Of a DNA stretch of 64,000 nt, positions 11,181-60,305 are shown one piece after another. The stretch covers positions 15,595,201-15,659,200 of the forward strand of contig CM051028.1 of the NCBI GenBank assembly GCA_027627225.1. The letters are read 5' to 3'. The stretch comes from Congeria kusceri (taxonomy: Eukaryota; Mollusca; Bivalvia; Myida; Dreissenidae). The notes under the pieces are model-generated. The model worked only from the letters and a program-made list of their open reading frames with translations. It searched no databases and was not told the DNA's origin. Numbering within the stretch: the first letter of the stretch is position 1; the number at the start of each line of letters is the position of its first letter. The translations under genes and the position numbers were made by a program.

Positions 11181-11812
11181 ATAATTATATCGCATGACAG
11201 TGTGTGTGACATTGATATTGTCAACCCTCGAAACAGAATCTCATCATAAAAAGATATTTAAAAAAGTCGTCATTACAAGTGTTTTAATATTGAGTAATTT
11301 TTATTTATTATACCTGTCACCAGGACGCTTCCATAAGCAAGAGATAAAACAGAAACCAACAATTCTTTTGATTTTATTTTTTTTATTAGTTTATAAATTT
11401 ATAATACGCAAAAGCTAATGCTAGAGTGCAGCCTTAACAGCGTTTGTTTGCAACAGAAAGAAACGCATGCAAATTATAAAGTATATTCTTGTACACGTGT
11501 TGTAATGTACAAAAGCAGCACAACACAACAATTTGGAGTAAAAATATACCACAAGAAATATATTTTACTAAAAGTGAATATACTGGACATTAATTTGTTA
11601 TTGAAAAAAGGGTTATTAAATTGTTGTGGTGTAATATAATGTCTGATCCATTAGTTTGTTAAAAATATTAAAAATAAGATCACAATTTACAAATAATATC
11701 CGCACTTTAAATAAGATGTATGTTTTTGAACATGTATAAAATGCAATGTTATGCCTTGCATTGTCAGCAGAAAATATTCACATTTGAATATGGCGCGTAT
11801 GCAGCTAGTTTT

Positions 11813-12452
11813 ATGTTCAAATGATAGAATGAAGAGGCAATTAGAGAAAAATAGGCCCGAGAATATTACTGTTTATATGTTCAAATGATAGAATGAAGAG
11901 GCAATTAGAGAAAAATAGGCACGAGAATATTACTGTTTATATGTTCAAATGATAGAATGAAGAGGCAATTAGAGAAAAATAGGCACGAGAATATTACTGT
12001 TTATATGTTCAAATGATAGAATGAAGAGGCAATTAGAGAAAAATAGGCACGAGAATATTACTGTTTATATGTTCAAATGATAGAATGAAGAGGCAATTAG
12101 AGAAAAATAGGTACGAGAATATTACTGTTTATATGTTCAAATGATAGAATGAAGAGGCCATTAGAGAAAAATAGGCACGAGAATATTACTGTTTATATGT
12201 TCAAATGATAGAATGAAGAGGCCATTAGAGAAAAATAGGCACGAGAATATTACTGTTTATATGTTCAAATGATAGAATGAAGAGGCCATTAGAGAAAAAT
12301 AGGCACGATAATATTACTGTTTATATGTTCAAATGATAGAATGAAGAGGCCATTAGAGAAAAATAGGCACGAGAATATTACTGTTTATATGTTCAAATGA
12401 TAGAATGAAGAGGCCATTAGAGAAAAATAGGCACGATAATATTACTGTTTAC
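11813..12452. repeat. 64-bp minisatellite, 10 copies
   Basis: Ten head-to-tail copies of exactly 64 bp each begin ATGTTCAAATGATAGAATGA. Variants fall in blocks: GGCAATTAG in copies 1-5 and GGCCATTAG in copies 6-10. CCCGAG occurs only in copy 1, GTACGAG only in copy 5, and CGATAAT in copies 8 and 10. The array lies about 100 bp past the stop codon of the big defensin, on the 3' side of that gene. Confidence 0.97.
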
Positions 12453-14936: not shown

Positions 14937-17900
14937 ATGGATAAGCCTTCTTTACAAACATGGGTCTTAAAAACACTTATCGGTAAGTATATTTTTCAAT
15001 TATTTACTATAAATATGTGTGATTGTTGATGAACAATCCGTTAGTATTATCGTTGATTAAGCTAAATTGTATTATATTAAGTAAAGGTTGTATGTGTTTA
15101 TTACATTTTTATTCAGTGTCCAAATCTCGACGCTGTATTGACATAGTGTTGTTATAATGCAATTGTATTATGCCTATAAATACTTTTAATAGCTTGTGTT
15201 TTTTTCAGTGATTCATATATCAGTGGTTCTTTCAAATAACCTGGGGTATGTATCTGTTTTGAAACCTACCCTTCTCTACCGCAATGTTACACTCAATTTC
15301 ACCGCCCATAAGGCACTCGGTCAGAACGAAATCAGTGCCTTGAAATGGAAAGTGAAGTTCATAAATGAGACATCATACCAGGACATCACAGCCAATATTT
15401 TCTATGAGACACGCGTTTCTGGGATCAATATGTTCATGGATCTGGTGAGAGTGGACGAGAGATATCGAGGTGCAATCCTTCAAGTCACGTACGGCAATTT
15501 GATGTCTAACGAAATACAACTAGAGCTCATAGGTAATATAATTATGTTGAAGTGCATCAAAATGTAATGAAATATTTTTCCAAGTTTAAATTTCAGCGTA
15601 GTCATAAGTGATTATTAAAGCGTTATTTAGATAATGATTACATGCTTTTATATTCAGATTTCATACACGACTGTGGATACTTGTATATCGTATCGTATCC
15701 CGAGAAAGCCCAAGACAGTTTGCAGATAGGGTACTATCCCAGTGATAAAGTGTTAGGGGACAGTTGGTACGTACGCAGATGGTTTAGCAGAGTGAATGGT
15801 ACATTACAAGAAATAACATTGCAGGGAGAATTGTATGAGGAACGCCAACGGACAAGAAACTCCGAATACATCATATCCATCTTAAATTGGTCTCAAATCG
15901 ACAGTGTTCTAATAAAATGTTCGAACACCAGCTCACCTCTAACAACAAACGAGGTTAACATCACATTTACTGGTAAGGATTTGTGTTTCAGTAATAATAT
16001 ATGCAGCATTTTAAATGACACATTTCTCGTTGTTATTTTGCGAACTTCTTAAATAAAGATTTTATACTAGAAAATACACGCACATAAACCTTATTTGCAA
16101 GAGATGACTTAATTGATATTAATTTATATGTTGTGTTTTGTGTTTCTGACGTGTTTTCGTTTTGTCCTGGTTTGTTTGACAATTGGTCATTTGCCTTGAA
16201 TAAAGGATCGTGTGCTGCTCATAAGAGTTCTCTCCTGCTGATGCAGCTAGAGTTTCACAATTATTAAACTGAGCTCATTTGTTCCTTCAGACCCTCCGAC
16301 AAAGGTACACCTGCATGTACCGGAACAGCTTACAGAGGAACACACACATCTATGTTGTGCGGCTTATAGCTTGAGACCTCCTCCACAGCTGGACATGTTT
16401 CTGAACGGAAACAAGATTTTGGATGCGAACCAGATAAATAATTATAACGAATCCTCAGAAACCTTTAATAGCAAAGTTTGTGTCAGTTCAGTAAACAAAA
16501 CATGGTACAATAAAACTATACAATGTACTTCAACATTTCGAGAGCACGTATTGACAGCAAATGAAACAATCCGCTTTACATGTAAGTACTTTAAATTTTG
16601 CAAGTACCATCTTATTATAAATACTATTAACATATGAATAACACTCGTTGTAAAACGTTTTCGCTGGTAATCAGTATATTATTATGTGTACGTGTTTTAC
16701 AGACGCTCCATCCTCACTCAAACAGTCGTCTTGGTCGATGCCAATTAATTCATCGGTCTGTGTTAATTGCACAGCTATAGATACAAACGCTAATTGTACA
16801 ATCCAATGGGTTTTTGACAAAAAAGACGTAACCAGCACAACGGACTACACGATAGGCTTCAATATCACGTCTCAGATGTGCATAAACATGTCGGAGAACG
16901 CTAGAACTAGGCAAACAACATGTAATGTAACATGTGAGGAATTCGATGTAGAGCTGAAACTGGATTTTAATCTGTATACACCAAGTATGAAAAAAACTTT
17001 ATATGATTAATACTTCCCCAATATACAGTTAATGCAGTATAAATAAAACACACCAGAAACCCATTGACAAATGGCATTTCAATAATCAATCCCAAATGTA
17101 TTGAATTAATATTAAGATACAGACCTTTTTTTTATAATTTCGAGAAAGGAACATGAAACGTCGAACTCCTTCAGTATACATGTATGCATCAGTACAAGAT
17201 GAAAACTATAAGACCGTCAGGGGCGTAACTAGCCATACTCCTATACGCCCGTGCTTATAAATTTAGAACGAGTGGATACACGTAGAAAGTGCTGCATACT
17301 ACAAACATATATTTTAATCGAGACCTTAAGAGGGTTTTTATGTGTAATATACGCACTATTGTTTTCCGGCTTATTTAACAGTTAATTAAGCAATAAATGT
17401 TGAAGTCTGATTTATTTGTACATGCTATGACAATTATCACTGACGATTTTGTTTGAATCTTCAGTGTCTCCCGGCGTCGAATGCTCCACTGATTTACCTG
17501 TTCCAGATCCGCAAGGTGTCGAATCACCCAGAGATTTCCCGCTGATGTCAGTTACGCTAGGGATCGGAGCAGGAACTGTTGTGATTCTATCCTGCATTGT
17601 TATAGTTATCCAAGGTCAGTCGTATTGTTCTTAAACATTGTAAAGCATAACGTTACATTTGCAGTACTAATACATATATTGTTTCATTATCTTTAATATT
17701 TGATTATCCTTAAGTACATATATATTTCTCAACACATAACTAACTATTCCCCAGTCGGTTCATGTGTCACTTACAGGAATATTGTTAACTATCTTTTATT
17801 AGTGAATACATGAATAAAACATATACAAGGTATGAAACTACATCAGCTAAGGGAAATCCTTTTTAACATCACAATAACCTATATTTCAATCCAATTTAGT

Positions 17901-19213
17901 TAAGACTAATTATAATTTCGTCTATATTCATAGTTCGTATGCGCAAGAAGATTTCGATCGAGCATCGACAGGCGTAAGTACATTTGACAAAAACAAATGC
18001 AGTGTTGATTACGATATATTTTTGATATTATGCAAGTGTTCGATTTAACATTCAGAATTAGTTCCAAAATCAAAATCACTTTTAATATAAACATTTCTAA
18101 AATACTGAAACATGTTTGGAAATAAAGTGTTTGCTGCAAAGCTTGGTCTCTCTTGTGAATATTTATTATAACTTGTCCAATAATAATAATTTTTTAAAAT
18201 AAGGGCAATAACGATTCTTTCGGCCCTTCCGATTAAGTCACTGTACAAAAAGATTTTCCGACAGTCAAATAATTACGTAAAACTTCAAATCTTAAGTTAT
18301 GAATGAAGGTATAATTTGCTATAATTTTACAACCAGTTTCAATTTCAGGTTGCCAGGGCAAGGTCTAGCTTTACCTGCCAACAACAATCCTATAGGTGTG
18401 CAGTATTTTTCTAATATAGATTTTAGTATTGTTTGTATTTTGTATTTGTGTACATAGTTTTGGACGTTAAAATATAATAACATGTACATGTACATGATAT
18501 TTCGAAAATACATACCCGTATAGGAAATAAAGTTTCTTTAAAAGAAATGAATGTCGAATGAAGTCCGTGTATAACTGCAAAGACATACAACTAATAAATA
18601 ATTGTTTGTAATAATATAACATTGGCGATTGCCAAAATGTCACTGGAACTGACATTTTTATTGTAACACTTTCAGCAAATATCGCAGCCCATGAAGCAGT
18701 GCATGGTGCAATTTATGCAAACGTCGACAACATTGAACAAGCTTCCAACAATTCACCCTCTACCTCTAACCAGGTTTGTTGTTTATATTTGAAGTTTCAC
18801 GTTTTATTTGCGAAACACGATAATTAAGTCATGATGTAACACACATTTAATAACCTTGTTGTTCGCTTTTAGCATTTACAAAACGTGTATAAAAATGAAA
18901 ATAGAAAGAACAATAACATGTTGAAGGTAGGTGCACGTAAATTCAAAAACATACTATTGTATGTTAATCAATGATCTGTTATTAACTACATGAAACAACC
19001 ATTGCTATGACCCAGAAAATACTGTATATCCGCTTTAATTTATAGGTGAATCACAACTCAGACCTGACTTACGCAGAACTAGACATTGAATTCTTGGAAA
19101 AGAACAGACCTACAATGAAGAAAACAGACAAATATGTGCCCACTATCTACTCCACAGTAATCTGCTCGAGAAACGTTGCTGGACAAAGCGATCCAGATTG
19201 TGCTTGTGAATAA
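14937..19213 (+). CDS. Ig-superfamily transmembrane receptor with ITIM and ITSM tail
   Basis: Eleven exons: 14937-14982, 15209-15532, 15658-15972, 16291-16581, 16703-16984, 17465-17614, 17934-17973, 18349-18395, 18676-18773, 18873-18926 and 19046-19213. All have GT-AG borders and consistent phases, giving about 604 residues. A hydrophobic leader spans exons 1-2. Exons 2-5 are symmetrical phase 1-1 units, each about one Ig-like domain. Domain 1 has no cysteine, domain 2 has two, and domains 3 and 4 have four or more. N-glycosylation sites are numerous. Exon 6 carries a proline-rich stalk and a membrane span (about 448-469), followed by a basic stop-transfer (RMRKK). The roughly 135-residue tail holds Y512 (IYANV) and Y537 (VYKNE), which resemble Grb2-type YxN sites. 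It also holds an ITIM-type LTYAEL (Y558) and an ITSM-type TIYSTV (Y584). In vertebrates such motifs recruit SH2 phosphatases or adaptors, so an inhibitory or switch role is inferred. No ortholog is recognised. Confidence 0.88.
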
Positions 19214-28028: not shown

Positions 28029-31000
28029 TTTTTAGCTCACCTGAGCACAAAGTGCTCATGGTGAGCTTTTGTGATCGCCCGTTGTCCGTCGTGCGTGCGT
28101 GTGTGTGTCATCAACTTTTCATTCAAACAACATCTCCTCCTAAACTGCTTGGCAGATTTTCACCAAACTTCACAGGAATGATCCTTGGGTGGACCTCTTT
28201 CAAAGTTGTTCATATCTTTCCGTTCCGCTGAATATGTAGGTCACCAGAGCTAAAAATAGATTTAAAAAGTGAAAACTTTAAAAATCTTCTTCTATGAAAC
28301 CGCAAGGCTCAGAGCTTTCATATTTGATATGTGACATCCTCTAGAGGTCCTCTACAAAGATTGTTCAAATGATGCCCCTGGGGTCAAAACTGGCCACGCC
28401 CCAGGGGTCAAATGGTTTATATAGACTTGTATAGCAAAATGACTTTGAAAATCTTCTCCTCTGAAACCGCAAGGCCTAGAGGTTTCGTATTTGGTATGTA
28501 ACATTGTATAGTGGTCCTTTACAAAGATTGTTTAAATGATGCCCCTGGGGTCAAAACTGGCCACACCCCAGGGGTCACATGGTTTATATAGACTTAAATA
28601 GCAAAATGACTTTCAAAATCGTCTTCTCTGAAACCGCAAGGCCCAGAGGTTTCATATTTGGTATGTAACATTGTATAGTGGTCCTCTACAAAGATTTTTT
28701 AAATGATGCCCCTGGGGTCAAAACTGGCCACACCCTGGGGGTCACATGGTTTATACAGACTTAAATAGCCAAATGACTTTCAAAATCTTCTCCTCTGAAA
28801 CTGTAAGGCCTAGAGGTTTCATATTCGGTTGGTAACATTGTATAATGGTCCTCTACAAAGATTATTGAAATGATTCCCCTGGGTTCAAAATTGGCAACAC
28901 CCCGGGGGTCACATGGTTTATATGCATTTAAATAGCAAAATGACTTTAAAAATCTTCTTCTCTGAAACCGCAAGGCCCAGAGCTTTTATATTTGGTATCT
29001 AACATTGTATAGTGGTCCTCTACAAAGATTGTTCAAATAATGCCCGTGGGATCAAAACTGGCTACACACCGGGGGGAGGGGGGTCACATTTTTTATACAG
29101 CACTATAACTTCAATAAGCCTCTAACACTCAAAAATCAGTACAGTGTTGTGAGGGTGCTTTAGAGAATCCTTAGAGATGACCATTGAAATGCATAGAAAA
29201 TGTTACCCACGTGCATGGTCAATAATGTTGTTGTGTAAGTAAATTAGCTGGATGTAATGTTTAGGCAATGTGTATGAAATGTAGTCAATCAGTCTTAGTA
29301 TATAAGACCGTCTTATATCATACATTTTCACTTAAGATCTACTACATTGAATTTGTTTACAGGCAAAGTGTATATTTCTAATTTAATAATGAAATGCCAA
29401 ATATGAAATGATAGCAATAGATCTATATCTAGTTTAACTTAAATGGAACTGCACAATTTTTTGTAAGACAAAATGATGCAGCAATTGAGTCTGTAGCTCT
29501 GACACTGCAGTCTGTTTCACCAGCATGTACAGAAACACGTAGCATAGAGCCTAAAGTCTAGTCATCTACTTTAAACCTTTCATTTGTACAGTTTAATTAA
29601 ATGTGTGCAGCACACAAAAAACTACACACAGATCATGTCTCTGCAACAAAGTTCTTAATGCTTTGTTGGCAGCCTCCACCCAAGCACCTCTTCTCAGAAG
29701 AACAACTTTTTAGTACCAGATTATTTGACATGAACACTATGCCTCATCAACATGTGGGTGGACATGTAGCACCAGCAGAAGCCATGAAGGACAGCTTTCT
29801 AAATTGGTGTACAGGGCTTGCACTAAAATGAAATGTTTGTGTTGGATATAACTGTTGGATAGTGGAAGACGTGAACATTTCAGACATGAAATGAAGTATA
29901 AAATAAAGCTTTGTTTAAAGTCATTTCTGATAATGTTGTGATAATATGCCAATATTTTCTTTGAAAGAGGTATACATTTAGGTAAACCGTGTCATTATCT
30001 ATTTCCAGGTTACAGGCTGTTTATTGTTGTGCTTCTGTTAGCTCTGAAGAACTGAAGATTTTGATTTAGTACACATAAAAAGTTTTAAAAAATCTAACGT
30101 CGAAAGGGGTACCCCCCTCCCACCCCAACCCCCAACCGCGGTTATTTGCCCCTATGCCATAGCAAAATCCCGGGGAAAGGCCTGGGTATGTAACATTGAA
30201 TAGTGGTCTTCTACAAAGATTGTTCAAATTATGCCTCTGGGGTCAAAACTGGCCACATCTCGAGGGTCACATGGTTTATATTGACTTGAATTGTAACATG
30301 ACTTTAACAATCTTCTCCTCTGAAACCGTAAGGCCCAGAGGTTTCATATTTGGTATGTAACATTGTATAGTGGTCCTCTACAAAGATTGTTCAATTGATG
30401 CCCTTGGGGTTAAAACTGTCCACATCCCGGGGCTCATATGGTTAATATAAACATAAATAGCAAAATGACTTTAAAAAACTTCTCCTCTGAAACCACAAGG
30501 CCCAGAGGTTTCATATTTGGTTGGAAACATTGTATAGTGGTCCTCTATAAAGATTGTTCAAATGATGCCCCTGGGGTCAAAAATGGGCACACTCCAGGGG
30601 TCACATGGTTTATATCGACTTAAATAGTAAACTGGCTTTAAAAATCTTCTCCTCTGAAAATGCAAGGCCCAGAGTTTTCATATGTGGTATGTGACATTTT
30701 ATAGTGGTCCTCTGCAAAGATTGTTCAAATGATGTCCCAGGGGTCAAAACTGGCCCTGCCCTGGGGTCACATTGTTTATATAGACTTAAATAGCCAAATG
30801 ACTTTAAAATCTCCTGAAACCGCAGTGTTTTCGTATTTGTAATGTAACATTGTATAGTGGTCCTCTTCAAAGATTGTTCAATTATGCCCCTGGGTAAAAA
30901 GTGGCCATGACCCGGGGCGTCACATGATTTATATAGACTTATATGGCACGTGGGCCTTAAAAATCTTCCTTGTTGAAACCGTAAGGCCCAGAGATTTTAT

Positions 31001-31409
31001 AATTTGCATGAACATTGTGGAGCGGTCCTCTACACAGATTGTTCAAATGACGTCCCTGGGGTAAAAAAAGGCCACACCCTGGGGGGTCACATGGTTTATA
31101 TATATTTAAATAGCTAAATGACTTGAAAAATCTTCTCTGAAACTGCAAGGCCCAGTGGAATCATATTGGGTATGTAGCATTGAAAAGTGGTCCACTACAA
31201 ATATTGTTCAAATTATGCCCCTGGGTTACAAGGTGGCCATGCCCTGTGGGTCACATGGTTTATATAGACTAAAAAAAACATCTCAAACTGCAAGACCCAG
31301 TTCTTTATACTCAGGTAAGGCGTTTAGTGCCATTTTTCCCTCTTGTTATTAGCCATTATGATGCCTTAAACTCAGGTGAGCGACCTAGGGCCATCATGGC
31401 CCTCTTGTT
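28029..31409. mobile_element. HINE/Helentron-like element A with about 165-bp tandem array
   Basis: The 5' end TTTTTAGCTCACCTGAGC includes a hairpin at 28035-28066. The 3' end carries CTCAGGTGAGC, an inverted match to the 5' segment, then the hairpin GGGCCATCATGGCCC and the terminal TCTTGTT. Between them lie roughly 12 degenerate copies of a repeat of about 165 bp with the cores CTCTGAAACCGCAAGGCCCA and GATGCCCCTGGGGTCAAAAC. About 1.1 kb of unrelated sequence (29096-30185) interrupts the array. Subterminal inverted repeats, a 3' hairpin and a tandem core match descriptions of Helentron-associated elements and bivalve 'pearl' elements. No replication-helicase protein is encoded. Confidence 0.7.
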
Positions 31410-31850
31410 AAAAACATCTCGCTGTCCTCCACTGTGTAAACTTTAATCAATATTCTGCTATGCTGTAGAAGTGTCTTTCTGTTGTTCAATCTTAGGATAG
31501 CCTCACTCTGATTGGTTGAAATGCTAAATGAGGCTGCCATTTTGGGAATTTCTACATATATGTAATAGATTTATACATAAGTTTAAATCGGAATTAAATC
31601 ATATATAAGGTAAATTTGTTTATGTAAAGTACATCTATTAATAACTTTATTGTAGCAAGTTATAGCAATATCTGAAATTTGAAACTTTCATGTTTCCACC
31701 ACATAAATGGTCGTTTGTCTATGAGACATTCCAGCGAATTTAGTCCCGTATCAAAAGTAGCACTAAATTGGTTGCACATCTGATTTTTTTTACTATTGAT
31801 GCGGTAGCTTAAACCGCATTATTTAATGCATATTTAATCAATTTTTGTAG

Positions 31851-33862
31851 TTTTTAGCTCAGCTGAGCACAAAGTGCTCATGGTGAGCTTTTGTGATCGT
31901 CTGTCGTGTGTGTGTGCATGCGTGTGTGCGTCGTCAACTTTTCATTCAAACAACATCTCCTAAACCGCTTGGCAGATTTTCACCAAACTTCACAGGAATG
32001 ATCCTTGGGTGGACCTCTTTCAAAGTTGTTCAAATCTTTCCGGTCCGCTGAATATGTAGGTCACCAGAGCTAAAAATAGATTTAAAAAGTGAAAACTTTA
32101 AAAATCTATGAAACCGCAAGGCTCAGAGCTTTCATATTTGATATGTGACATCCTCTAGAGGTCCTCTACAAAGATTGTTCAAATTATGCCCCTGGGGTCA
32201 AAACCGGCCACGCCCCGGGGGTCGCATGGTTTATATAGAATATATAGCAAAATGACTTTAAAACTCTTCTCATCTGAAACCACAAGGTCCAGAGGTTTCA
32301 TATTTGGTATGTTACATCCTATAGTGGTCCTCTACAAAGATTGTTCAAATTATGTCCCTGGGGTCAAAACTGGCCACGCCCCGGGGGTCACATGGTTTAT
32401 ATAGAATATATAGCAAAATGACTTTAAAAATCTCCTCTGAAACCGCAAGGCCCAGAGGTTTCATATTTGGTATGTAACATCCTTTAGTGGTCCTGTACAA
32501 AGTTTGTTCAAATTATGCCCCTGGAGTCAAAACGGGCCACGCCCTGGGGGTCACATGGTTTATATAGAATATATAGCAAAATGACTTTAAAACTCTTCTC
32601 CTCTGAAACCACAAGGCCCAGAGGTTTCCTATTTGGTATGTAACATCCTATAGTGGTCCTCTACAAAGATTGTTCAAATTATGCCCCTGGGGTCAAAACT
32701 GGCCACGCCCCGGGGGTCTCATGGTTCATATAGAATATATAGCAAAATGACTTTTAAAATCTTTTCCTCTGAAATCGCAAAGGCCCAGAGGTTTTATATT
32801 TGGTATGTAACATCCTTTAGTGGTCCTGAACAAAGTTTGTTCAAATTATGCCCTGGGGTCAAAACTGGCCACACCCCGGGGGTCACATGGTTTATTTAGA
32901 ATATATAGCAAAATGACTTTAAAAATCTCCCTTGAAACCGCAAGGCCCAGAGGTTTCATATTTGGTATGTAACATCCTTTAGTGATCCTGTACAAAGTTT
33001 GTTCAAATTATGCCCCTGGAGTCAAAACGGGCCATGCCCTGGGGGTCACATGGTTTATATAGAATATATAGCACAATGACTTTAAAACTCTTCTCCTCTG
33101 AAACCACAAGGCCCAGAGGTTTCCTATTTGGTATGTAACATCCTATAGTGGTCCTCTACAAAGATTGTTCAAATTATGCCCCTGGGGTCAAAACTGGCCA
33201 CGCCCCGGGGGTCTCATGGTTCATATAGAATATATAGCAAAATGACTTTTAAAATCTTTTCCTCTGAAATCGCAAAGGCCCAGAGGTTTTATATTTGGTA
33301 TGTAACACCCTTTAGTGGTCCTGAACAAAGTTTGTTCAAATTATGCCCTGGGGTCAAAACTGGCCACACCCCGGGGGTCACATGGTTTATTTAGAATATA
33401 TAGCAAAATGACTTTTAAAATCTCCTCTGAAACCACAAGGCCCAGAGGTTTCATATTTGGTACGTAGCATCCTATAGTGGTCCTCTACAAAGATTGTTCA
33501 AATTATGCCCCTGGGGTCAAAACTGGCCACGCCCAGGGGATCACATGGTTTATATAAACTTATATAGCAAAATGTCTTAAAATCTTCTTCTCTGAATCCG
33601 CAAGGCCCAGAGGTTTCGTATTTGGTATTTAACATCCTATAGTGGTACTCTACAAAGATTGTTCAAATTATGCCCCATGAGTCAAAACAGACCACACCCG
33701 ATTGGTCACATTGTTAATATAGACTTAAATAGCAAAATGACTTTAAAATTTTTCTCCTCTGAAACTGCAAGGCCTAGAGGTTTCATATTTGGTATGTAAC
33801 ATTGTATAGTGGTCCTTTACAAAGAGTGTTAAAATTATGCCCCTATGCGATACACCTTTTTT
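31851..33862. mobile_element. HINE-like element B with about 165-bp array, 3' end missing
   Basis: The element has the same 5' end as element A (TTTTTAGCTCAGCTGAGCAC and a CT/GT-rich leader), followed by about 11 tandem copies of the same 165-bp repeat. It fades out at about 33862 without the usual hairpin and TCTTGTT terminus. Within it, 32430-32924 and 32925-33419 form a recent 495-bp (three-monomer) higher-order duplication. Confidence 0.7.
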
Positions 33863-36354: not shown

Positions 36355-37014
36355 TTTTATTATATACCACGATAAACTTCAAATGTGCATTTGCCTTATT
36401 TTATTTGTTTAAAACTACAATAATGACTTATCATTGTAGGTATAGATAATATTTGTTTACATAACTTTATGATCACGTCATTAAAAAAGTAGTCCAGCTA
36501 GTATGGTAATACGGGATCAGAAAAATAGCGAGTAGCATAATACTGGATTTTGTTTCTGTCGACATGTATTTCACCGATTGATAAAGCATTAATTTTGTTA
36601 AGATTTTAAACAGGTATATAATAAAGTGAAAATATGTGTGTTCAGTGCAAGCTAAATATGACACGTGACCTGCAGTACTTTTATCGCATCATTCATGCAT
36701 GGTTGTAAAATGGTGGGCATAAAATAAAGTTGTGTGTTACAGTTTTACTCAGTTGGGTACTTCCGACAATCAACTAATGTTAGTGGCGTAACATAATTTC
36801 AAGCACTCAATTAAATCACCCAGTACTCATTATTTAATTAATGATGGGGAAATACTAAATTCTGGTAAAATCTTTACCTGTTGCACTGTGTAATAATATT
36901 TTTGACATAAACATGCTGCTTCAAACTAAGATATCCTGAGGCTGCAATAGTTCTGTTCAGAAATTTAAGGTTTACAGTAGAAACCACTAACCAGTAATAT
37001 ATTTTGCAGGAACT

Positions 37015-40000
37015 ATGGAAGAGCCAGAGCCAAAGAAATTGAGGCTTGCTAGTGACAACTCACAATCAACTGTCAATCAGAGTGGTGAAACTCTTGAATA
37101 TGAATTGGAAATCCAAGATAATGAAGATGTTGATGATGATACTGTTGTTGTTGGTAAAAATCACATTGTGAGTAAAGACCATACATATCATGAGTATAGC
37201 AAACACGATGTTAATGATGAAGCAGAACAAAATCCCAGTCAGAAAAATGAAGAATCTGTTAAGAATGGTTATAAGCATGGTGAAGAAGGCAGTTCTGAAC
37301 ATCTTAATGGGGTAGATATAGAAAGATCTAGTCTGATGAAAATTGAATCTGTGAAAGAAGATGCTGTCACAATATCAAATGTTATTCCTAATATAGATTT
37401 GGTTGAAGTGTACAAAAAGATATTGGCTAGAAGAAATGTAAAGCACAGAGTAGATCTAGTAACTATGGAACTTTTGGAAGATGCAAACACTAATGCAAAT
37501 GAGGTAGTAAGCAGTCCTAGTGATGAAATATTCAAAGATGTAGCAGAAATTTTAATGAAATTTCCAAATGTTGATCCAAGTTACATTTATGATTTGCTGG
37601 AAAAGAATGAAGCCAGGCAAGATAGAGTTGAAATCGTTGTTGCCAAACTTGGGAAGGAACCACCAGAGAAAGGTTCCAATAATGTTTCAATAGAAAATAC
37701 TCCTCCATCAAGCATGTCAGAATCTGCAACAAGCAATGAAAGTAAGAAAAGTGATCCTTTTAGTGATCCAGAATTCAGAAAAAATCCTTTGTACAAAGAT
37801 TTGAGAACTTTGAGGAAAGTATTGCCTGCCATAGACCCAAATGAACTGTATGCTTACTTAGAGGCACATTTTGATAAGCCAAATCGTGTTCAGATAGTGA
37901 TTGATGAGCTGACAAAGTCTGAAAGTCAGGAGTCTCTACCAGTTGATGACAGTCAGTCAATTCAAGAGACCGATAAAGGGAAGGCACCAATGACAACAGA
38001 AGACAAAGTGCAAGCAGATCTCAAGGAACTAAAAGAAATTTTTAGGGACTGTGACCCAAGTTTTCTTTACGAAAAGCTTGTTATGCTATATAACGACACT
38101 GACAGAGTGATGAAAGTTGCCTCAGAGTTATTTGAACATAAAGACTATCCAAAAATAGAGGAAACCGATGGCGTAAAATCTGGAAAGACAAATCCGAAGG
38201 AAATACAATTTGACATGAAAGGATTTTTGGTCAAGTTTCCAGATCCATTTAATTACTTTGAAAATACAGAGAGGATAGTAAGTGAAAGTTACAAAGAACA
38301 TGCGCTGATTTATGTGAAGAATACATACCCGTTTCTGAAAGATGGCTACTTAAAGAAGATTCTCAACAGTCACAACTATCACCTTCTACCTGCTGTTACA
38401 GAGATTGACATGGCTGTGAACGATGCTATTGGTAATGTTAAGTTTTTATTTTTAACTGACTTTGATCGAATCAAGTTGTGTTTTGTTTTATTTCTGCCAT
38501 CTGCTGTATTCAATATTGTTTATTCTAACATAATACTCGCTAATTTCTCTATATACAAAGAACAAAATTGTCGTTGTTAAACTACCAAATAAACAACGCC
38601 AAAAGTAGTCCAGATTCTGAGCGTAGAATAGTAAAATGTAGTTCTCATTACAATTGCAAAAATATTTGTCAAATTATATTAGAATCTAAATAATGTTTGC
38701 ATTATCGTTGTTTCTCGGCCAAAAAACAACTCTTTGTCGTTCTGATGCATGGCTAGCGCCCTCATGGTTTAATTCCTACGCATCAGAACTCCAAATCGTT
38801 ATATATTGGCCAATAAACCACAATAAATCAAAAATTATTTCTTAAATAAACACTGTCACAGTGTTTTTAAGCCACTAGCACCTATTGATGTCGGAGGCAT
38901 ATAGTGATTGGCCTGTCTGTCCGTGATTCCGTCCATACGAGGTTAATTAGAATTTACTGTTTCGTCTAGCACCAACACTGCTTACTACCACACTTAGATA
39001 CTTATACAGATTTTGCTTATGACCATTCCAAATCCACCCATATCACCCAACCTCAATTTGACCTTGACCTTCTTCTAATTTGGACTTGGAATAATTCAAA
39101 TGGACTATTTCTTGGTTAACTTGATTTTACTGTTTCGTCCAGCACCAACACCGCTTACTACAACACTTTGATAATTAAACAGTTGTTGCTTATGACCAAT
39201 CCTAATCCACCCATATCACCCAACCTCACTTTGACGTTGAACTTGACCTAATTCGGATTTCAAATGGGCTGTCTAGCACCAACTGGGGCCATCTCTGTTT
39301 AACACAGCCTCTTGTTTTCTTCTACATTTATTACAATACATGTACATCAATTTTTTCTTTATTATTAACATATTATAGTCTATAACCGACACAAGACTAA
39401 ATGCTGCGTATACTGTTAAACATAATCTTTTGATACTGACAGTGTTGTTTTTTTATGGCCAAGTTGGCGCCGAAATTCGGCCCCATTCCCCTGCTAAAAA
39501 AGTATATATTTTTCCCCTATACTTACCTTATAATTCCCCTCAGAATGTAAGCTTTATTTTGAAAAAAAACTATCAAAATTGGACAAAAATTGACTAAGAT
39601 AGGGGGATTTTCGTAAACAATCTCAGCAATTTTTTATCAAACCAAGTTTGTGCATAAACTTAGTTAACATTTGTAGCAAAACAACTGATTAATTTTTTTT
39701 GTAACAAAGTAGAATATAAAAATGTAATAATGCTTTTCTACGAAAACCATTCCCCTTTTGCCGTAAAATTTCCCGCCTGAAGGGCCCCGCCACCTTTCCC
39801 CCAAAGGTGAAAAAAAACACTGACTGATCTGGTTTACATGCCTCTAAGATCACAATTACAACACCACCTAAACATTCTAAGCCAGTATTTGAGTGAAACC
39901 CGTAATCCATAGTTACATGTATGCAAGTATGTAATACTATTGCATTTTGGACAGGTGACCGTCAATCTAAGAAGCGTCGATCTACACCAAGAGATTTGCT

Positions 40001-43000
40001 GGACTTCCCAGATGTTGCAGATGAACCATTCTTTCAGGAAATGCTGTTTTGCCAGCACAAGCAGCAAGTGAAAGGTAAGTCGATAGTGGTTTAGGGTCTT
40101 CAAACCGTGATTCCATTGTGAGCAGCTGGTATGAAGTACTCATGTTTGAATGTTACAGTGTTATTAAGATGCTGGATTTATAGGTGGACCAGAGGTTTGA
40201 AAGGAAGGGAAGTGACCAAGGCCCTATGATACCCTTGTTATCAGGGACAGCAAATTTATGTGAAATACACTTTTGGAGACAGTGCATAATTTTAAAGAAA
40301 TTATGCTAGGGGAAGATGCATTTATAAAGCCTCCGCTTTAAAAATGCCAAAAAGATCTGGGTGTTCATCTGTAGTGATATGCTGTGCATGCATTGTACTG
40401 TATATGTGACTCAGGGCATTAAAACAGTATAATATATTTAATATTCATTTAGATTACCTTCGCGAAAGACGGTATCTAAGAGAGCAGAAGCTTCAGGTTG
40501 CAAGAGAGACCAGGGAGCTGATGGAATGTGGCTGTTGCTATGACGATGAGTGTTTGTTTGAAGACATGGCGGCCTGCGCTGATGGCCACCTCTTCTGCAA
40601 GCAGTGTGTTATCAGGTCCACAGAGGCAGCTGTGGGAGAAGGGAGGACCGTGTTTAAGTGTTTGACAGGTGGGTGCAAGAAGTTACTGTTGTGAGTTGGA
40701 AAGAAATAAATATCATCATTTATGTCAATAAGATGATGGTCAAGAATTCTTCATAAAATAAAAAAACTTTTGACGTTATTGACAATAAGTCTAAGTTCAT
40801 AATTTCAATCTTTTCAATCTGGATGGATCAGTAAATAAATATCACACCCCATAGAGGGTGATACAACGTATTGTCAACCCGAGAATGGTATTGAGAACTG
40901 AGGCATGTAATATTTATGTTATTATACCGAACAATGAAAACAAGGGAACATATGCAAGATTACTTTAATTATTTAATCATCAACTGAATTGACTAGCTTG
41001 TTTATCGAATTTCATCAAGGGCTGGAAGTAAACACATTTTAATAAGAGCTCAACGAGTAGGAGTTGATTTTTGTATACCATGGCTTCCCTTGATTTAGGG
41101 AAAACCCTTGTTCTATTTTTATCTGCATGCAAGAGTGACATTATACTGTAGCATGGGACATTATACAGATATTTCATTAGCATTTGGGAACAGACAAATT
41201 GTTTTCCTGAAGTAGAGGAGGCAACTTTTGAACTTTAAAAAAATGTTGCCCCCAATACTGAAGGGAACAATTTGACTGTTCCCAAATTACTATGCAATAT
41301 CTGTTTGATTACCTACTTCCAATAATAAATAAAAGACAACTGTTAATTTTTTTATTGTCCATAAAAACTTAACGTTACAATAGTTGTGACTCAAAACTAC
41401 AGAATAGAACAATCATTAACCTGGGTCCTGCTTGTAACAGTCAGTAGCAGTCAGTGTTTCCAAAAAGTTGCATTGCGCAATGTTCTGTGCAAGTTGCTCC
41501 CCTTTGTATAATGATGAGGGCAACATAACAAAATTGTGACACCGCAGTGTTATGCCATTTTTGATGTTGTTATGGTTTTCATTGTTTTATGAAAACTGTA
41601 TAGTCTGGGCATGTATTTCAAATGGCACTGCAATTTTGTATTGCATTTTGTAAACGTATTTGCACATATTGTATGTGTTGAGCGAAATAAACTGAAACTG
41701 AAACAAAACAAAACCATGAAACATCGCGAAAAGTTGCCTGTTGGGAGGAGCTTGTTTAAAAAAGTGGTAAACAGTTAAAAACGCTTAATTATCATTTACA
41801 TAATAAAGTAGGTAATACAATAAATTAGTTGGTGCTATGTATATGGAAATTTAACATGGGCTAGTTATGTGAGGTATAATATTATTGATTGAGTCCTTCT
41901 ATTTCTGAATTAAAAATATTGCACACATTTGTCTTCTAATTTTGCTCTTGAACAGGTTCCTGTGAGAGTGTGTTCCCCCTGCACACACTGCAGGACGTGC
42001 TGGCGCCCTCTCTGTTCTCCCTGGCGCTCCGTAAGCTGCAGGAGGAGGAGCTACGACAGGCCGACATCGCCGACCTCGTGTCATGCCCCTTCTGCTCCTT
42101 CGCGACCATCATGCCAAATCAGGAGGACCGCGTGTTCAAGTGCTTGAACCGGGAATGTCTCAGGGAATCATGCAGGTATTATATGAAGATTTGCATTGGA
42201 CTCTATAATGCATTATTATGCCATTATAGCAGACATGTATAAATCATGCCCAATCATGAGGACCGCGTGTTCAAGTGCTTGAACCCGGAATGTCTCCGGG
42301 AATCACGCAGGTATTATATTATGAAGAATTAAGTCGTTTTCTATGAAGCATTATAGCAGAAATGTATGCATGATGCAATATCAGGCGGGCTGCATGTTCC
42401 AAGTGCTTATACCCAGAATCAATCAGGTATCATATGTAGAACCAGCAATTGTTTTTTCACTGCTTTGGGAATGGGTACGGTACCCATCAAATTGGGAATT
42501 TTGTATTGTTAAGTCTTGAAATTGGGAAAATTAAAGAATTCATGATTCATTAATAACTTAAAATAGTGTTGTAATGGCCGAATTTGTTATTTTAATGGTG
42601 TTTATTTATAATCATTCAAGAAATTTCATGATTTACAGCTTAGATTTACATTTCCTATTTATTTAGGATTTTGTCAATTCTGATTTGAGATTTTTTTTTT
42701 ATTCCAATTGGGAAAAATAAACCATAGTTGGCATTGGGCATGGGTCCTTTTACTGGACCCTGTTAAATAAGGAAAAGAATCACTGAGAACTGGGTTGGTG
42801 CACTAATGCACTGCAACTCTGCTATATTGTGTTCCATTATTTTGCGTTGTCCCTTGACCCCAACTTTGAAACTTTAGTAAATAAATCTAGTTTGGTCTGG
42901 TCTGGTTTTTGCACCTACATGTATATTGCTACTCTCACTGACACCTGTGTAGTGTGCTTGACCTGCTTAATATCAATGTTTAACAGTTTGATGTCATCAG

Positions 43001-46000
43001 CATATATCGAGAGTTCCACCCACTCACAGCACTTTAGGAGGAATTTACATAACTTTTTAAAAATCTTTATAGGTTCCTTTGGTCTGTGAGATTGAAATTT
43101 CATTAAATTTACTGGACTATGTTGTATTACACAGAAACGAATATCTTTTTATCTTTAATACCCTTTTGTATTTGTAGATAAAAACAGTTTTTATGAAACA
43201 GTAATTTAAATTACCAAAGTATGCGACAAGACTTGTTATTGCCTGATAAAATTCTGATGAGTTTGTTAGTTCGACTATTCACTGAATAGTTCGAGCTGTA
43301 CTACACATGTACTCACCCATTTGTGGGCGTCTGCATAATGCTATGGTTAAGGTTTGCGTGCAACAAGTACATATCTCTGTAACTACTACAGATGTTCAAT
43401 TGAATTCCTAACATGTCTTATGGGTAATTATGTAAGGTCACTGACCAAAACCAATTACTCTGACTTGCAATTTAGCAGAATTATTCCCTTTTTTGGTATT
43501 TAAAAAATTCAGGTTAAGGTTTGCATACAAGTAAATATCTCTGTAGCTACTACAGATATTCAGCTGAATCTTCACACAGGTCTTCATGGTCATAATATAC
43601 ATGTAAAGGTCACTGGCCAAAGCCCATAACTGTGACCAGCATTTTAGCAGAATTATGTCCCTATTTATACATAGAAATATTAAAGTTTGGGGGCAAGTAC
43701 ATATCTCTGCTCTGTAACTACTACAGATATTTTAATTGAAACTTCACAATTGTCTTCGGGGTCATTATGTAAGGTCAAGGTCACTGACATAATGATATAT
43801 TATCAAAGCGGAATTACTTATAGTCAAGCTTGCTGTCCTTGTAAATAAACTAGTTTGTGTAAATTAAGACTAATTTAACATTTCAGTATTTGAGTTACAA
43901 ACATTTAATGGAGAGTATTTTTGTCGAAGCCAGTTCTTTCCTGTTAAAATACACCAAAGAAAAAAAATGAAGAAGACTAGTTTTTTGTGAACATTGAAAT
44001 TGTCTAGATGAAAAGATTTCATCTGTAATTTAATTTGATACTATAATTTGGAGTCTCAGTCAGGCTAGTGATGGGACGATGATTGGAAAAAATTACTTAG
44101 CGGCGTGTACAATTTGTTTGATGTTGATTATCAATGTCATAGTTGCAAAATTGATCATTGCATTCAACATGGGATATAAGGACTAAGATGCGAGTTACGT
44201 ATTTTAGACAAAATCATTTTTGTATTATTTTACAGTTTTTCCATGTTAAATGTACTTGTTTTATATTTCTTTTATATGGTCAAAATTGATAAGCAATTGT
44301 TTATTAAAAAAAGTTATGTTATTAAACTTATTATTTATTTGTTTACATTTATTTATGCACAAAGAAAAAAATATCATTATTTAAGTATTTTTAGCTCGAC
44401 TATTCGAAGAATAGGTGAGCTTTCCTACTACTGTCGGCGTCCGCGTCTGAATTTGGTTAAAGTTTTATTCAAAAGTCTTGTAACTTCAAAACTACGTAAG
44501 TTATTCACTTGAAACTTGGAATATACCTTTGTCATCAACTCCAGTTTCAGGGGCAACATTCTCCATAACTCTGTTTTGTATTTTGACAGAGTTATGCCCC
44601 TTTTTCACTCAGATTTTCTGGTTAAACTTTATATTCAAATGTTTTGTAACTTCAAAACTACATAAGTTATTCACTTGAAACTTGGAACTAACCTTTGTCA
44701 ACAACTCCAGTGTCAGGAGCAACATTCTCCGTAACTCTGTTTTGTATTTTGACAGTTTTATGCCCCTTTTTCACTTAGATTTTCTGGTTAAAGTTTCTAT
44801 TAAAATGTTTTGTAACTTCAAAACTACATAAGTTATTCACTTGAAACTTATAATTTACCTTTGTCATCAACTCCAGTATCAAGGGCAACATTCCCCATAA
44901 CTCTGTTTGTATATGACAGAGTTATGCCCCTTTTTCACATAGATTTTCTGGTTAAAGTTCATATTCAAAAGTTTGGTAACTTCAATACTACAAAAGCTAT
45001 TCACTTGAAACTTGGAATGTGAACATTCCCCATAACTCTATTTTGTATTTTGATAGTTATGTCCCTTTTTCACATAGATTTTCTGTTTAAAGTTTATATT
45101 CAAAAGTCTTGTAACTTCAAAACTACATAAGTTATTTTCTTGAAACTTGGAACTAACCTTTATCATCAACTCTAGTACCAGGGGCAACATTATCCATAAC
45201 TCTATTTTGTATTTTGAGAGAGTTATGCCCCCTTTTCACTTAGATTTTCTTTTAAAGTTTATATTCAAAAGTTTGATAACTTCAAAACTACATAAGATAT
45301 TCACTTGAAACTTGGAACTAACCTTTGTCATCAACTCTAGTATCAGGGGCAACATTACCCATAACTATGTTTTGTATTTTGACAGAGTTATGCCCCTTTT
45401 TCACATAGATTTTCTTGTTAAAGTTTATATTCAAACGTTTTGTTACTTCAAAACTACATAAGTTATTCACTTGAAACTTGGAACTAACCTTTGTCATCAA
45501 CTCTAGTATCAGGGGCAACATTACCCATCATTATGTTTCGCATTTTTACAGAGTTAGCCCACTTTTTACCTAGACTTTGTGGTAAAGTTTTTGTTCCAAA
45601 CATTTATAAACTATACAAGGCTTCACTTAAAAATGTTGTATTTTATGTATTTTAAAAAATTTATGCCCCTTTCACTATCCAAAATATGTACCAACTGAAA
45701 TACTTCGAATAGTCGAGCGCGCTGTCCTCTGACAGCTCTTGTTTCTACATAAAATGAATAGAAAAATGTATAATACAAAATAATATTTGAAACCGATTAT
45801 AATCGGTAAGATCGTATCGGAACTGGCAACCGATTCCAACCTGACAATCGATTGCAATTTTGAACCGATGTCCCAACACTTAGTCAGGCCATGGTTGAAC
45901 AGATTATTAATATAATCTCAACTGCAAACTTATATTTGCAGGCTATGTAAGGAGCCAAACCATGTACCACTGCGATGCAACGAGGTGGAGAAGCAAGGGG

Positions 46001-50074: not shown

Positions 50075-51134
50075 TTTTTGTGACGATGTTTGAAATCAAA
50101 AAGATGAAATTTTGACACATTTATATTTAACCTTTCACACCAAGTGCAACAAATTCACTTTGTAAAACAGTTCATATTATTTTTGGTCTTTCTTCTGAAG
50201 ACCATTAGACAAATTACAAACGTGATACTGTCGCTTGAAAGTCAGAAGGCCTCATCAGCTTATGAGCAAAGTAGGCTGATAACCAGTTCCGGCTTTTAGG
50301 GGCCGTTATTTATCCCTGGAAGACATCAGATAGGTTAATTCCATTTGGTTTCACTTGTTCTTTGATAACAATTCATATATCTTTTATTGTACCATGCATT
50401 GTTCTGATTAGCTTTAATTTTTAGTTCAAATATCATATAGCGCCCAATGAACTATTAGGGTGACTGCAGAGTCAACACTTGACATTCTACAGGTCATCTT
50501 TTCATAAGATCACCATCAAATTTTGTCAGAATCATGTCCTCAGTAAATGTACAGGGCATCAAAGGTCATGTGTCAAGCACTAAATCACTAGGTCTCAAAT
50601 GTTATAAAAACCAAGATCCACATTTGTCATTATTGATAAAAACCTGGCCGAAGGTTGTCCTCCATGAAATCTAGGTCCTGCTAAAATATGGATTATCTTT
50701 GGCCAAAAACTAGGTATCTATGTCAAATAATGTAACAAATTTTGTGTCAGATCAGGTCAAATCTAGGTCCTGGTAAATCTGCTGTAAAAAAACCGGGTCA
50801 CTAGATCAAATAACAATATGTTTTATGCCCCCGAAGGAGGGTATATTAAAATCGAACCGTCTGTCAGTCCGCCCGTCCGTCCCTTAGTCCATCATGCCAA
50901 GGTTACAGATTTTTATGAAGTAAAATATCATTAATACTAACAAAGAACTAATACTAACATTTACTTGAAACTTAAAATATGTCTTTACTATCTATTTTAC
51001 ACAAAACAAAGCAACCCCCATAACTCTGTTTGTTATTGTGACAGATTTATGCCCCTTTTTTAACTTAGAAATGTTGGTTGAATTTTTCATAAGTTTTTCC
51101 AGAGCAGCCATTTTCACTGAAGTAAAAGTTTACA

Positions 51135-53660
51135 TTTTTAGCTCACCTGAGCACAACGTGTTCATGGTGAGCTTTTGTGATCGCCTTTTGTCTGTCGTTC
51201 GTCATTCGTCGTTAGTCTTTCATAGTTCGTCGTCAACATTTACCTGGTGAACACTCTAGAGGCAACATTTATTGGCCAATTTTCATGAAACTTAGTCAGA
51301 ATTTTTGTCCCTATGATATCTTAGCCAAGTTCGAAACTAGGTCATGTGGAGTAAAAAACTAGGTCACTAGGTCAAATTGAAGAAAAAGCTTGTAAACACT
51401 CTAGGTTACATTTTTTTGCCCAATCAACATGAAACTTGCTCAAAACATATGTTCTAATGATATCTTGGCCGAGTTCGAAAATGGTTCCGATCCGTTGAAA
51501 AACATGGCCGCCAGGGGGCGGGGCAGTTTTCCTTATATGGCTATAGAAAAAGCGTGTGAACATCCTAGAAGTCACAATTTTTGCCCAATCAACATAAAAC
51601 TTGCTCAGAACCTTTGTTCTTATGATATTTCAGCCGAGTTCGAAAATGGTTCCGCTCCATTAAAAAACATGGCGGCCAGGGGGCGGGGCAGTTTTCCTTA
51701 TATGGCTATAGAAAAAGCTTGTGAACACTCTAGAAGTCACATTTTTCGCCTAATCAACATTAAACTTGCTCAGAACAATTGTTCTTATAATATTTCGGGT
51801 GAGTTCGAAAATGGTCCCGGTCCATTGAAAAACATGGCCGCCACGGGACGTGGGTCAGTTTTTCTTATATGGGTATAGGAAAAGCTTGTGAACATTATAG
51901 AAATCACATTTTTTTGCCAATCAACATGAAACTTGCTCAGCTATAGGAAAAGCTTGTGAACACTCTAAAAGTCACATTTTTTGCCCAATCTTCATGAAAC
52001 TTGGACAGAACATTAGTCCCAATGATATCTCGACCGAGTTCGAATCTGGGTCATGTGGGTTCAAAAACTAGGTCACTAGGTCAAATTGAAGAAAAAGCTT
52101 GTTAACACTCTAGAAGTCACATTTTTTGCCCAATCTTCATAAAACTTGTTCAGAACATTTGTCCCAATGATATCTCGGCTGAGTTTGGTTCTGGGACATG
52201 TGGGGTCAAAAACTAGGTAACTAGGTCAAATTGAAGAAAAAGCTTGTTTACACCCTAGAAGTCACATTTTTTGCCCAATCTTCATGAAACATGGTCAGAA
52301 CATTTGTCTTAATAATATCTCGGCCGATTTCAGATCTGAATCATGTGGGTTGAAAAACTAGGTCACTAAGTGGAATTGAAGAAAAAGCTTGTTAACACTG
52401 TAGAAGTCACATTTTTGCCCAATCTTCATGAAACTTGGTCAGAACATGTGTCCCAATGGTATCTCGGCCGAGTTCGAATCTGGGTCATGTGGGGTCAAAA
52501 ACTAGGTCACAAGGTTCGTTGAAAAACATGGCCGCCAAGGGGGGGGGGGCAGTTTTCCTTATATGGCTATAGGAAAAGCTTGTCAACACTACAACTCATC
52601 TTTTTTGCCCAATCAACATGAAACTTGGTCAGAACCTTAGTTCTGATGATATCTCGGCCAGGTTAAAAAATGGTTCCGGTTCGGTGAAAAACATATCTGC
52701 CAGGGTGGTGGTGGCAATTTTCCTAATATGGCTATTGGAAAACTTGTGAACACTCTAGAAGTCACATTTTGTGCCCAATCTTCATGAAACTTAGTCAGAA
52801 CATTTGTCCCAATGATATCTCAACCGAGTTCGAATCTGGGTCATGTGGGGTCAAAAACTAGGTCACTAGGTCAAATTGAAGAAAAAAGGTTGTTAACACA
52901 CTAGAAGTCACATTTTTTGCGCAATCTTCATGAAAATTGGTTCGAACATTTGTGCCAATGATATCTCGGCCGAGTTCGAATCTGGGTCATGATGGGGAAA
53001 AAACTAGGTCACTAGGTCAAACTGAAGAAAAAACTTGTTAACACTAGAAGTGACATTTTTTGCCCAATTTACATGAAACTTGGTCCGAACATTTGTCCCA
53101 ATGATATCTCGGCCGAGTTCGAATCTGGGTCATGATGGGGGAAAAACTAGGTCACTAGGTCAAATTGAAGAAAAAGCTTGTTAACACTAGAAGTCACATT
53201 TTTTTGCGGCCAATTATGATAACTTTATAAAATTTCCATATAAGCTGTTTGGATAGGTTCAAGTTTTTCGGTAAGCTAGTTTCTAAAGAATGCCTTGAGG
53301 GAAACTTATTCCCTATAGTAAAATAAACCCATAGTCCAATTTTGATCAGTCTAGTTTGAAATGTGTCAAAATTATGGCCTTTTTACACTTAGAAATTTAA
53401 CATTCCTGTGGATGGGGTGATGGCGTCAACTTTTGATTTCCACTCTCTAACTTGAGAATGAATTTTCATACATAGATACCCTAAAGCAACACTTTACTTG
53501 GGATTGGATTTTTTGTCAAGGTCAAGGTAACTGTTACTAAAAATATAAAAAAAGTTTCTGATCAATTACTCGAAAACAAACAGTTTGTTTTGGACAAAAT
53601 GCCAGTAACTCTGACAAGTATAAGAAAAGTTGAGCGCGCTGTCCTCCGACAGCTCTTGTT
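51135..53660. mobile_element. HINE-like element D1 with about 140-bp array
   Basis: It starts TTTTTAGCTCACCTGAGCAC and contains about 13 copies of a repeat of about 140 bp (CTAGAAGTCACATTTTTTGC, GAACATTTGTCCCAATGATA, AACTAGGTCACTAGGTCAAA). It ends GAGCGCGCTGTCCTCCGACA, then GCTCTTGTT. The 5' end is of the element A type but the 3' end is of the element C type, so the termini do not pair. Confidence 0.7.
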
Positions 53661-54881
53661 TTTTATCACATCACGCTACTGAAGCAGGCGAACCATGTAG
53701 GACCATCTTGGCTTTGTTTTGTTTTTAGTTAATATTACAATTTTCAATCTCTATTGTTATATGGACGTATTAGAAATTGTATGAAAATTAGAATTCTGTC
53801 CTGTACTTTTCACTGAAGAATTGTCAAAAAGGAGATCATTTTCAATAAATAACATTTTATAGAAAATTTGATTACTGTAGTGCCGTTTTATTGGTTGTAC
53901 TATGCTAGCTTAAAATAAACAAATAATAGATTTACAACACATGTAGGTGATAAATTGTTCATCTGTTTCGATGTCTGAAGAATTTCCACTTTTCAAATAT
54001 ATATATTATAACTTAAAGTTTTAAACAATGACCTCTGTTTGTTGAATGTTGTGATACTAAAATATTCTTTAACAACTTTTGATATTGGTATTTGATGTTT
54101 ATTTTATTATTAGTATTTGATTATTAGTTATGAAGATGTTGATGTATTGTTTATTGATGTATAGTGCGAATGGTTAGTTGTGATTTTCCTCTGTGATAGT
54201 TCAACACATATACATTATTTTTTTCTGTGATAGCAAAAAAGTTGCAAAAACAAAATAAATACTTAAACAGTTTACAACTAATTAGTTTTTTCTTTACATA
54301 CATGATTAAAAACACGTTGCTGTGTCAGCTATTACAATGTACTATGGGTGACCTCTTACGTGTAAACAGTATGTTTCATATCCATGATGTAAACAATAAC
54401 CCCAAATGTAATGTTCTACAAAAATTACGCCATGTGCGTCACGGAGATTACTTTTACCTCGGATGAACAAACGAAACAAATATACTGTGTTGGTGTGTAT
54501 TCACGAGTTCTTACATTTTATCATGCAAAATAGATAACACAATTGACGTTGACGATGAACCTAACTCTATCACAGTTTTAAATGTCAGAGCGAGTTTAAA
54601 ATTAAGACTTAAGTTTGCTTATTTGGTGGAAATTTAGATGAAAGGATATTTCCAACAAATGCACAACTTGCGCGCAATTATATCTAGACGCAACGTTGAT
54701 GACTTCAGAATACGTTTTTACATGTTTTCTCCACTAAGGGATTCACTTGATCTTTACAAAGTTGTAGAAATCCGTACTTTAGTATAGTTTGCTCTTCAGG
54801 CCCTGTCTGAAATGTTTTTATACGCCATTTTGAAAAACGGGACGTATCGGAACGCCCCAGGCTCGTCGGAAAATCTTTGTC

Positions 54882-55616
54882 CAGCATAGATTAATTTTCA
54901 AATAACTTGGCAGGAGTGACAAGCATGATGAGACGGAGTGTCGCGCGCAAGAACCAGATCCCTAGGTCTCAGGTCAAGGTCACAATTCAAGGTCAAATGT
55001 CAAATTTAAGAAATAAATCCGTAACACTTTGACCGGAGCATAACATTATACAGCATGAATGGATTTTCAAATAAATTGGCAGAAGTGACAAGCATGGGGA
55101 GACGGAGTGTCGCGCGCAAGAACCAGTTCTCTAGGTCCAAGGTCAAGGTCACATTTCAAGGTAAAATGTCAATTTTAAGAAATCAATCCTAAGCACTTTG
55201 TCAGGTGCATATCTTTGTCCAGCATGGATGTATTTTCAAATTACTTGGCAGAAGTGACAAGCATGGTGAGACGGAGTGTCGCGCACAAGAACCACGTCCC
55301 TAGGTCCATGGTCAAGGTCACTATTCAAAGTCAAAGGTCAAATTTAAGAAATCAATCCTTAATACTGTCCGGAGCATATCTATGTCCAGCATGGATGGAT
55401 TTTCAAAAAAACTTGGCAGAGGTAACAAGCATGGTGAGTCGGAGTGTCGCGCAGTTGAATCAGGTCCCTAGGTTCAAGGTCAAGGTCATAATTTAAGGTC
55501 AAACGTCAAATTTAAGAATTAAATCCTGAACATTTTGTCCGGAGCATATCTTTGTCCAGCATGGATGAATTTTCAAATAACCTGGCAGCGCGGGCAAGAA
55601 CCAGGTCCCTAGGTCC
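54882..55616. repeat. 168-bp tandem array, about 4.5 copies (copy 1)
   Basis: Direct repeats contain CCAGCATGGATGGATTTTCA, GTGACAAGCATGGTGAGACG and GGTCAAGGTCAC. The array is cut at the duplication junction and then appears again, complete and continuing, at 59554-60305. Confidence 0.85.
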
Positions 55617-60288: not shown

Positions 60289-60305
60289 AAGTTTAAGGTC
60301 ACAAT
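59554..60305. repeat. 168-bp tandem array (copy 2)
   Basis: Second copy of the array at 54882-55616. Here it continues to the right into sequence ending near 60863. Confidence 0.85.

Follow-up and report, generated by a model that had tools for sequence, protein, structure and literature searches.

Does a bivalve gene encode a receptor whose cytoplasmic tail carries an ITIM followed by an ITSM, as in PD-1, and does such a pair point to an inhibitory function and to shared descent with the vertebrate receptors? The question was raised by a first-pass annotation of a stretch of 64,000 nucleotides of the Congeria kusceri genome (the whole stretch is referred to below as the window), in which one gene was read as an Ig receptor with both motifs at a vertebrate-like spacing and as a possible independent or ancient inhibitory checkpoint. 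In our reading, which we regard as about evenly poised between right and wrong, the gene encodes a lineage-restricted, single-pass dreissenid receptor that would recruit a phosphatase of the SHP2/Corkscrew type via the paired motifs. The likeness to PD-1 most likely consists of an arrangement of short motifs that arose independently.

Reconstruction of the gene yielded 11 exons with an open coding sequence of 1815 nt, ending in the stop codon TAA at 19211-19213, and a single-pass product of 604 residues (Table 1). All ten introns are GT-AG. Ranked by a simple consensus score, all 10 splice donors fell within the top 1-15% of the GT sites of the span; the acceptors were more mixed, with four in the top 7%, five at 22% and one (exon 5) at 40%. 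The G+C content of the exons was 41% versus 29% for the introns. The 11-exon structure given by the first-pass annotation was thus borne out by the GT-AG introns and the open coding sequence, and two Dreissena polymorpha homologs (P0001 and P0002, see below) support all exons but 4, 5 and 10. For these three exons the evidence consists of splice signals and open frames, because exons 4-5 are nearly unmatched in the homologs and exon 10 is absent from both. The reading frame is kept when exon 10 or exons 4-5 are skipped, and exon 10 is possibly of the cassette type. A tandem array of a 64-bp unit (11808-12451, approximately 10 copies, 98% matches) lies some 2.5 kb upstream of the gene.

Table 1. 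Coordinates of the receptor gene, its exons and the tail motifs within the window
Feature	Position	Strand	Content	Homologs
Whole coding span	14937..19213	+	Rebuilt exons	P0001, P0002
Exon 1	14937..14982	+	Start codon; beginning of the hydrophobic, signal peptide-like N-terminus	N-terminus aligned in P0001, P0002
Exon 2, phase 1-1	15209..15532	+	Remaining hydrophobic N-terminus; ectodomain D1 (unmatched in Pfam and PDB)	
Exon 3, phase 1-1	15658..15972	+	Ectodomain D2 (Ig models unmatched; unrelated proteins matched at chance level only)	
Exon 4, phase 1-1	16291..16581	+	Putative Ig-like domain, matches below cut-off	Mostly missing from P0001/P0002
Exon 5, phase 1-1	16703..16984	+	Putative Ig-like domain, matches below cut-off	Missing from P0001/P0002
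Exon 6	17465..17614	+	Stalk and transmembrane segment (residues 450-468 at 17554-17610, most hydrophobic stretch)	
Exon 7	17934..17973	+	Juxtamembrane basic segment VRMRKK...	
Exon 8	18349..18395	+	Tail	
Exon 9	18676..18773	+	Tail; contains GAIYANV (Y512, 18705-18725) as part of a strongly conserved block	
Y512 block, residues 500-515	18678-18725	+	Block begins at residue 498 in exon 8	
Exon 10	18873..18926	+	54-nt in-frame exon (NVYKNE, Y537)	Missing from P0001/P0002
Exon 11	19046..19213	+	Last exon; both motifs and stop codon	
ITIM LTYAEL (Y558)	19064..19081	+		LIYAEL in P0001, LIYDEL in P0002
ITSM TIYSTV (Y584)	19142..19159	+		TIYTTV in P0001, TIYTTI in P0002

The N-terminus of the product is hydrophobic and signal-like. 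By hydropathy, one strong hydrophobic segment (residues 450-468) is followed by RMRKK, which predicts a single-pass topology with the motifs inside the cell. The first 440 residues contain 17 N-glycosylation sequons, and the tail of approximately 134 residues contains five tyrosines (Y512, Y537, Y558, Y579 and Y584).

In a search of 5.8 billion proteins, two of the 3,723 candidates matched at E up to 1, both uncharacterised proteins of Dreissena polymorpha: LOC127872769 isoform X2 (P0001, E 1.1e-118, 57% identity to the window protein over aligned columns) and LOC127871369 isoform X2 (P0002, E 9.5e-109, 55% identity). The window protein itself was not among the matches. The comparisons with relatives given here are of these two proteins from a single species. 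Their alignment begins at the start codon and covers exons 1-3, the membrane-spanning segment and the tail, and by tblastn against the window each matched exons 2, 3, 6, 9 and 11; most of exons 4-5 and the whole of exon 10 are missing from these isoforms. A second copy of the receptor was not found within the window by tblastn of the three proteins (matches outside the gene had E 1.6 or worse).

Outside Dreissena, no relative was retrieved by a profile search (5,198 candidates, E up to 10) or by a search with the tail only (299 candidates, E up to 10). The tail search, suggested at first pass for bivalve proteomes, did recover P0001 from Dreissena; its sensitivity is limited, because it missed P0002. 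The protein search reaches only relatives that share exact 5-residue words, and very distant homology could escape it. The suggestion that the receptor might be ancient is left without support, because nothing was found outside Dreissena in these three protein searches of limited sensitivity. Within the reach of these searches, membership of the PD-1 family by descent was rejected, with no vertebrate protein among the matches at E up to 1 or at E up to 10. PD-1 was likewise absent from the four PDB matches at E up to 1, all of which were weak (E 0.1 or above).

The ectodomain is encoded by separate exons, of which exons 2-5 are each phase 1-1 and 94-108 codons long. Ig units of ectodomains are often encoded by phase 1-1 exons of such size, and the layout is compatible with an Ig ectodomain, which it fits but does not prove. 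When compared to Pfam, exon 4 matched C2-set_2 (E 0.011) and exon 5 matched I-set (E 0.046), both below the curated cut-off; exon 5 scored better with Tissue_fac (E 0.011) and also matched Bundlin (E 0.055), again below cut-off. The best PDB match of exon 4 was beta-2-microglobulin (E 0.038) and the sole PDB match of exon 5 was SYG-2 (E 0.11); with the whole protein as a query, an unrelated methylphosphonate synthase (E 0.1) ranked ahead of beta-2-microglobulin. Three-sequence profiles of the units encoded by exons 2 and 3 retrieved nothing from PDB for D1, and for D2 no Ig chain and one unrelated enzyme (E 0.65). In Pfam, D1 and D2 taken from the window protein and from P0001 matched no Ig model, the lone match being an unrelated phage family (E 0.098). 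Profile comparisons of D1 with D2, exon 5 and exon 4, and of D2 with exon 4, revealed no likeness. AlphaFold models of exon 4 alone (pLDDT 34.8) and of P0001 with a 4-row alignment (pLDDT 27.8) were unusable. The designation as an Ig receptor is therefore a weak one: exons 4-5 are, judged by their sequence matches to Ig models, likely to be Ig-like, whereas exons 2-3, the part common to all three sequences, match none and are unproven as Ig.

Both tyrosine motifs are encoded in exon 11. According to the rules S/I/V/LxYxxI/V/L for an ITIM and TxYxxV/I for an ITSM (PMC8631942), LTYAEL (Y558) fits an ITIM and TIYSTV (Y584) an ITSM, in the order in which they had been reported, and both rules are satisfied in all three sequences (window protein, P0001 and P0002). 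The two tyrosines are thus kept in both relatives found, and the sole change at a defining position is V to I in P0002, still inside the ITSM rule. The distance from tyrosine to tyrosine is 26 residues in the window protein and in P0001, and 16 in P0002, which lacks 10 residues between the motifs; the spacing of 26 noticed at first pass therefore varies among the three sequences. In PD-1 and BTLA a separation of 25 may allow 1:1 bivalent binding of tandem SH2 domains (PMC8631942), and phosphotyrosine distance has been called critical for SHP-2 activation (PMC7078208). A different account of PD-1, in which the ITSM alone is essential and two phosphorylated ITSMs are bridged by SHP-2 (PMC7078208), suggests that the ITIM-ITSM distance may be less important than supposed. 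With its spacing of 16, P0002 lends itself to a natural experiment on the importance of the 25-residue distance.

Of the tail segments that were measured, the one with the highest conservation was a block around Y512, which was absent from the first-pass annotation. In this block (IANIAAxEAVHGAIYANV, residues 498-515) 17 of 18 positions are identical in the three sequences, and the hexamers of the ITIM and the ITSM, with 4 of 6 identical positions each, fall below it. The conservation surrounding Y512 bears on a different reading of the tail, namely an activating or switch receptor in which Y512 (YANV), Y537 (YKNE) and Y584 dock the SH2 domains of Grb2-type or other adaptors and lead to ERK signalling instead of inhibition. 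YxN is the Grb2 SH2 motif, and TIYSTV presumably resembles the ITSMs of vertebrate SLAM-family receptors. SH2D1A and SH2D1B are adaptors bound by the ITSMs of certain receptors (PMC8631942), and ITSMs have been reported from activating as well as inhibitory receptors, so that the motif may signal either way (PMC8211107). We nevertheless consider an activating role rather unlikely: it leaves the ITIM at Y558, kept in all three sequences, unexplained, and Y537 lies in an exon that is absent from both relatives.

The pair could also be a product of chance, a tail with five tyrosines having come to fit two loose patterns and having been passed to close paralogs unused. When the window tail was shuffled 100,000 times, 14.7% of the shuffles contained an ITIM ([IVL]xYxx[LVI]), 2.8% an ITSM and 0.31% both, and an ITIM followed by an ITSM at a distance of 15-35 residues was obtained in 29 shuffles (0.029%). 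With a looser rule (Ser allowed at -2, 10-40 apart) the frequency was 0.08-0.12% across the three tails. By extrapolation from these rates, a few ordered pairs would be expected by chance in a genome that encodes thousands of membrane proteins, and so many membrane tails. Conservation does not single out the motifs, because five of the six key motif positions are identical across the three sequences and six random tail positions give at least 5 identities in 30% of draws; the motif positions are no better conserved than the tail average (of the 87 tail columns without a gap in any of the three sequences, 56 are identical). On the other hand, the pair persists in relatives that differ by 43-45% over aligned columns, and where residues of the motifs have changed (T to I, A to D, S to T, V to I), the defining positions still obey the rule. 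On balance, an idle pair seems quite unlikely to us.

It is distinctly improbable that the main role of YAEL, YANV and YSTV is that of YxxPhi clathrin-adaptor motifs setting the uptake of an adhesion or scavenger receptor; all three tyrosine stretches fit that rule too, but YxxPhi has no requirement for the Leu or Thr at -2 that is kept in all three sequences. An ITAM reading was rejected, as YAEL and YSTV are 26 residues apart, versus a spacing of approximately 6-12 between the motifs of an ITAM.

If the receptor does recruit a phosphatase, binding of a ligand would lead to phosphorylation of Y558 and Y584 by a Src-type kinase, and the bivalve SHP2/Corkscrew phosphatase would dock onto the two phosphotyrosines with its tandem SH2 domains. 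The recruited phosphatase would then damp a neighbouring activating receptor of the ITAM/Syk type, for example on hemocytes. Y512 (YANV) could provide a third binding site, perhaps that of an adaptor of the Grb2 type. Oyster hemocyte receptors with an ITAM or hemITAM act through ERK or Syk (PMC11999971; PMC13027682), and by analogy receptors of this type could be the ones that the bivalve receptor opposes. Only tentatively, and with some doubt, do we propose the broader scenario, in which dreissenids, independently of vertebrates, evolved inhibitory receptors that form a small family and have a PD-1-like ITIM-ITSM pair in common. In this scenario the pair would have been retained as Ig-like domains were added to or lost from the ectodomain, and the family would be a protostome immune checkpoint acting via recruitment of a tandem SH2 phosphatase.

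Several known receptors resemble the dreissenid protein in part. PD-1 and BTLA are also single-pass, with an ITIM and then an ITSM in the tail at a separation of 25, versus 26 here (PMC8631942). However, no sequence homology with the bivalve receptor was found, the bivalve ectodomain has as many as four units, among them two that match no Ig model, and the bivalve family has the additional conserved Y512 block and, in P0002, the spacing of 16. Invertebrate ITIMs are already known. Drosophila Draper-II, like the dreissenid protein a protostome receptor, has an ITIM that is bound by Corkscrew, the fly counterpart of PTPN11/SHP2, but Draper is a MEGF10-type engulfment receptor, and an ITSM is not mentioned in the available text of that source (PMC9008705). 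BbLcLRR of amphioxus, another invertebrate, has ITIM or ITIM-like tyrosines and is inhibitory in Jurkat cells; its ectodomain, in contrast, is of the LRR type, and its ITSM match, TRYLRV, sits in the predicted ectodomain (PMC8211107). Daphnia Dscam reportedly has tail forms with or without an ITIM, and shrimp and crab Dscam are without (PMC6851185). For Ciona, transcripts for ITIM proteins have been mentioned (PMC5465252).

Among bivalves, the oyster protein CgIgIT2 is a bivalve single-pass receptor with Ig domains and a tyrosine-motif tail, but its motif is an ITAM that acts through ERK, and the available text describes no ITIM or ITSM (PMC11999971). Oyster CgSiglec-1 differs in having two I-set domains; the ITIM mentioned in the available part of a review is that of mammalian Siglecs, and no tail motif is given there for the oyster protein. 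Among the matches listed in the open-access literature, no bivalve receptor with both an ITIM and an ITSM was described. Should the pair prove functional, braking by a tandem ITIM and ITSM would have originated outside chordates, and bivalve hemocytes would gain a brake against their known ITAM/hemITAM receptors. The constraint that a tandem SH2 phosphatase places on receptor tails would then be testable by comparison.

With respect to the rest of the window, there was no Rfam match at gathering scores. A likely RNF216 gene (RBR E3 ubiquitin ligase) is located at 36991-42242 on the forward strand, where the ORF at 40410-40691 matches the RNF216 structures 7m4m and 8eb0 (E 2.2e-10); the ORFs at 36991-38580 and 41952-42242, neither with a Pfam match, probably belong to the same gene in view of their position. 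Several satellite-like repeat arrays with a unit of 165-167 bp were present (28275-33844 and 44454-45590). Finally, the window contains a near-identical tandem duplication (approximately 50943-55616 and 55617-60300, with a shift of approximately 4.67 kb), which itself harbours tandem arrays with units of 143-169 bp.
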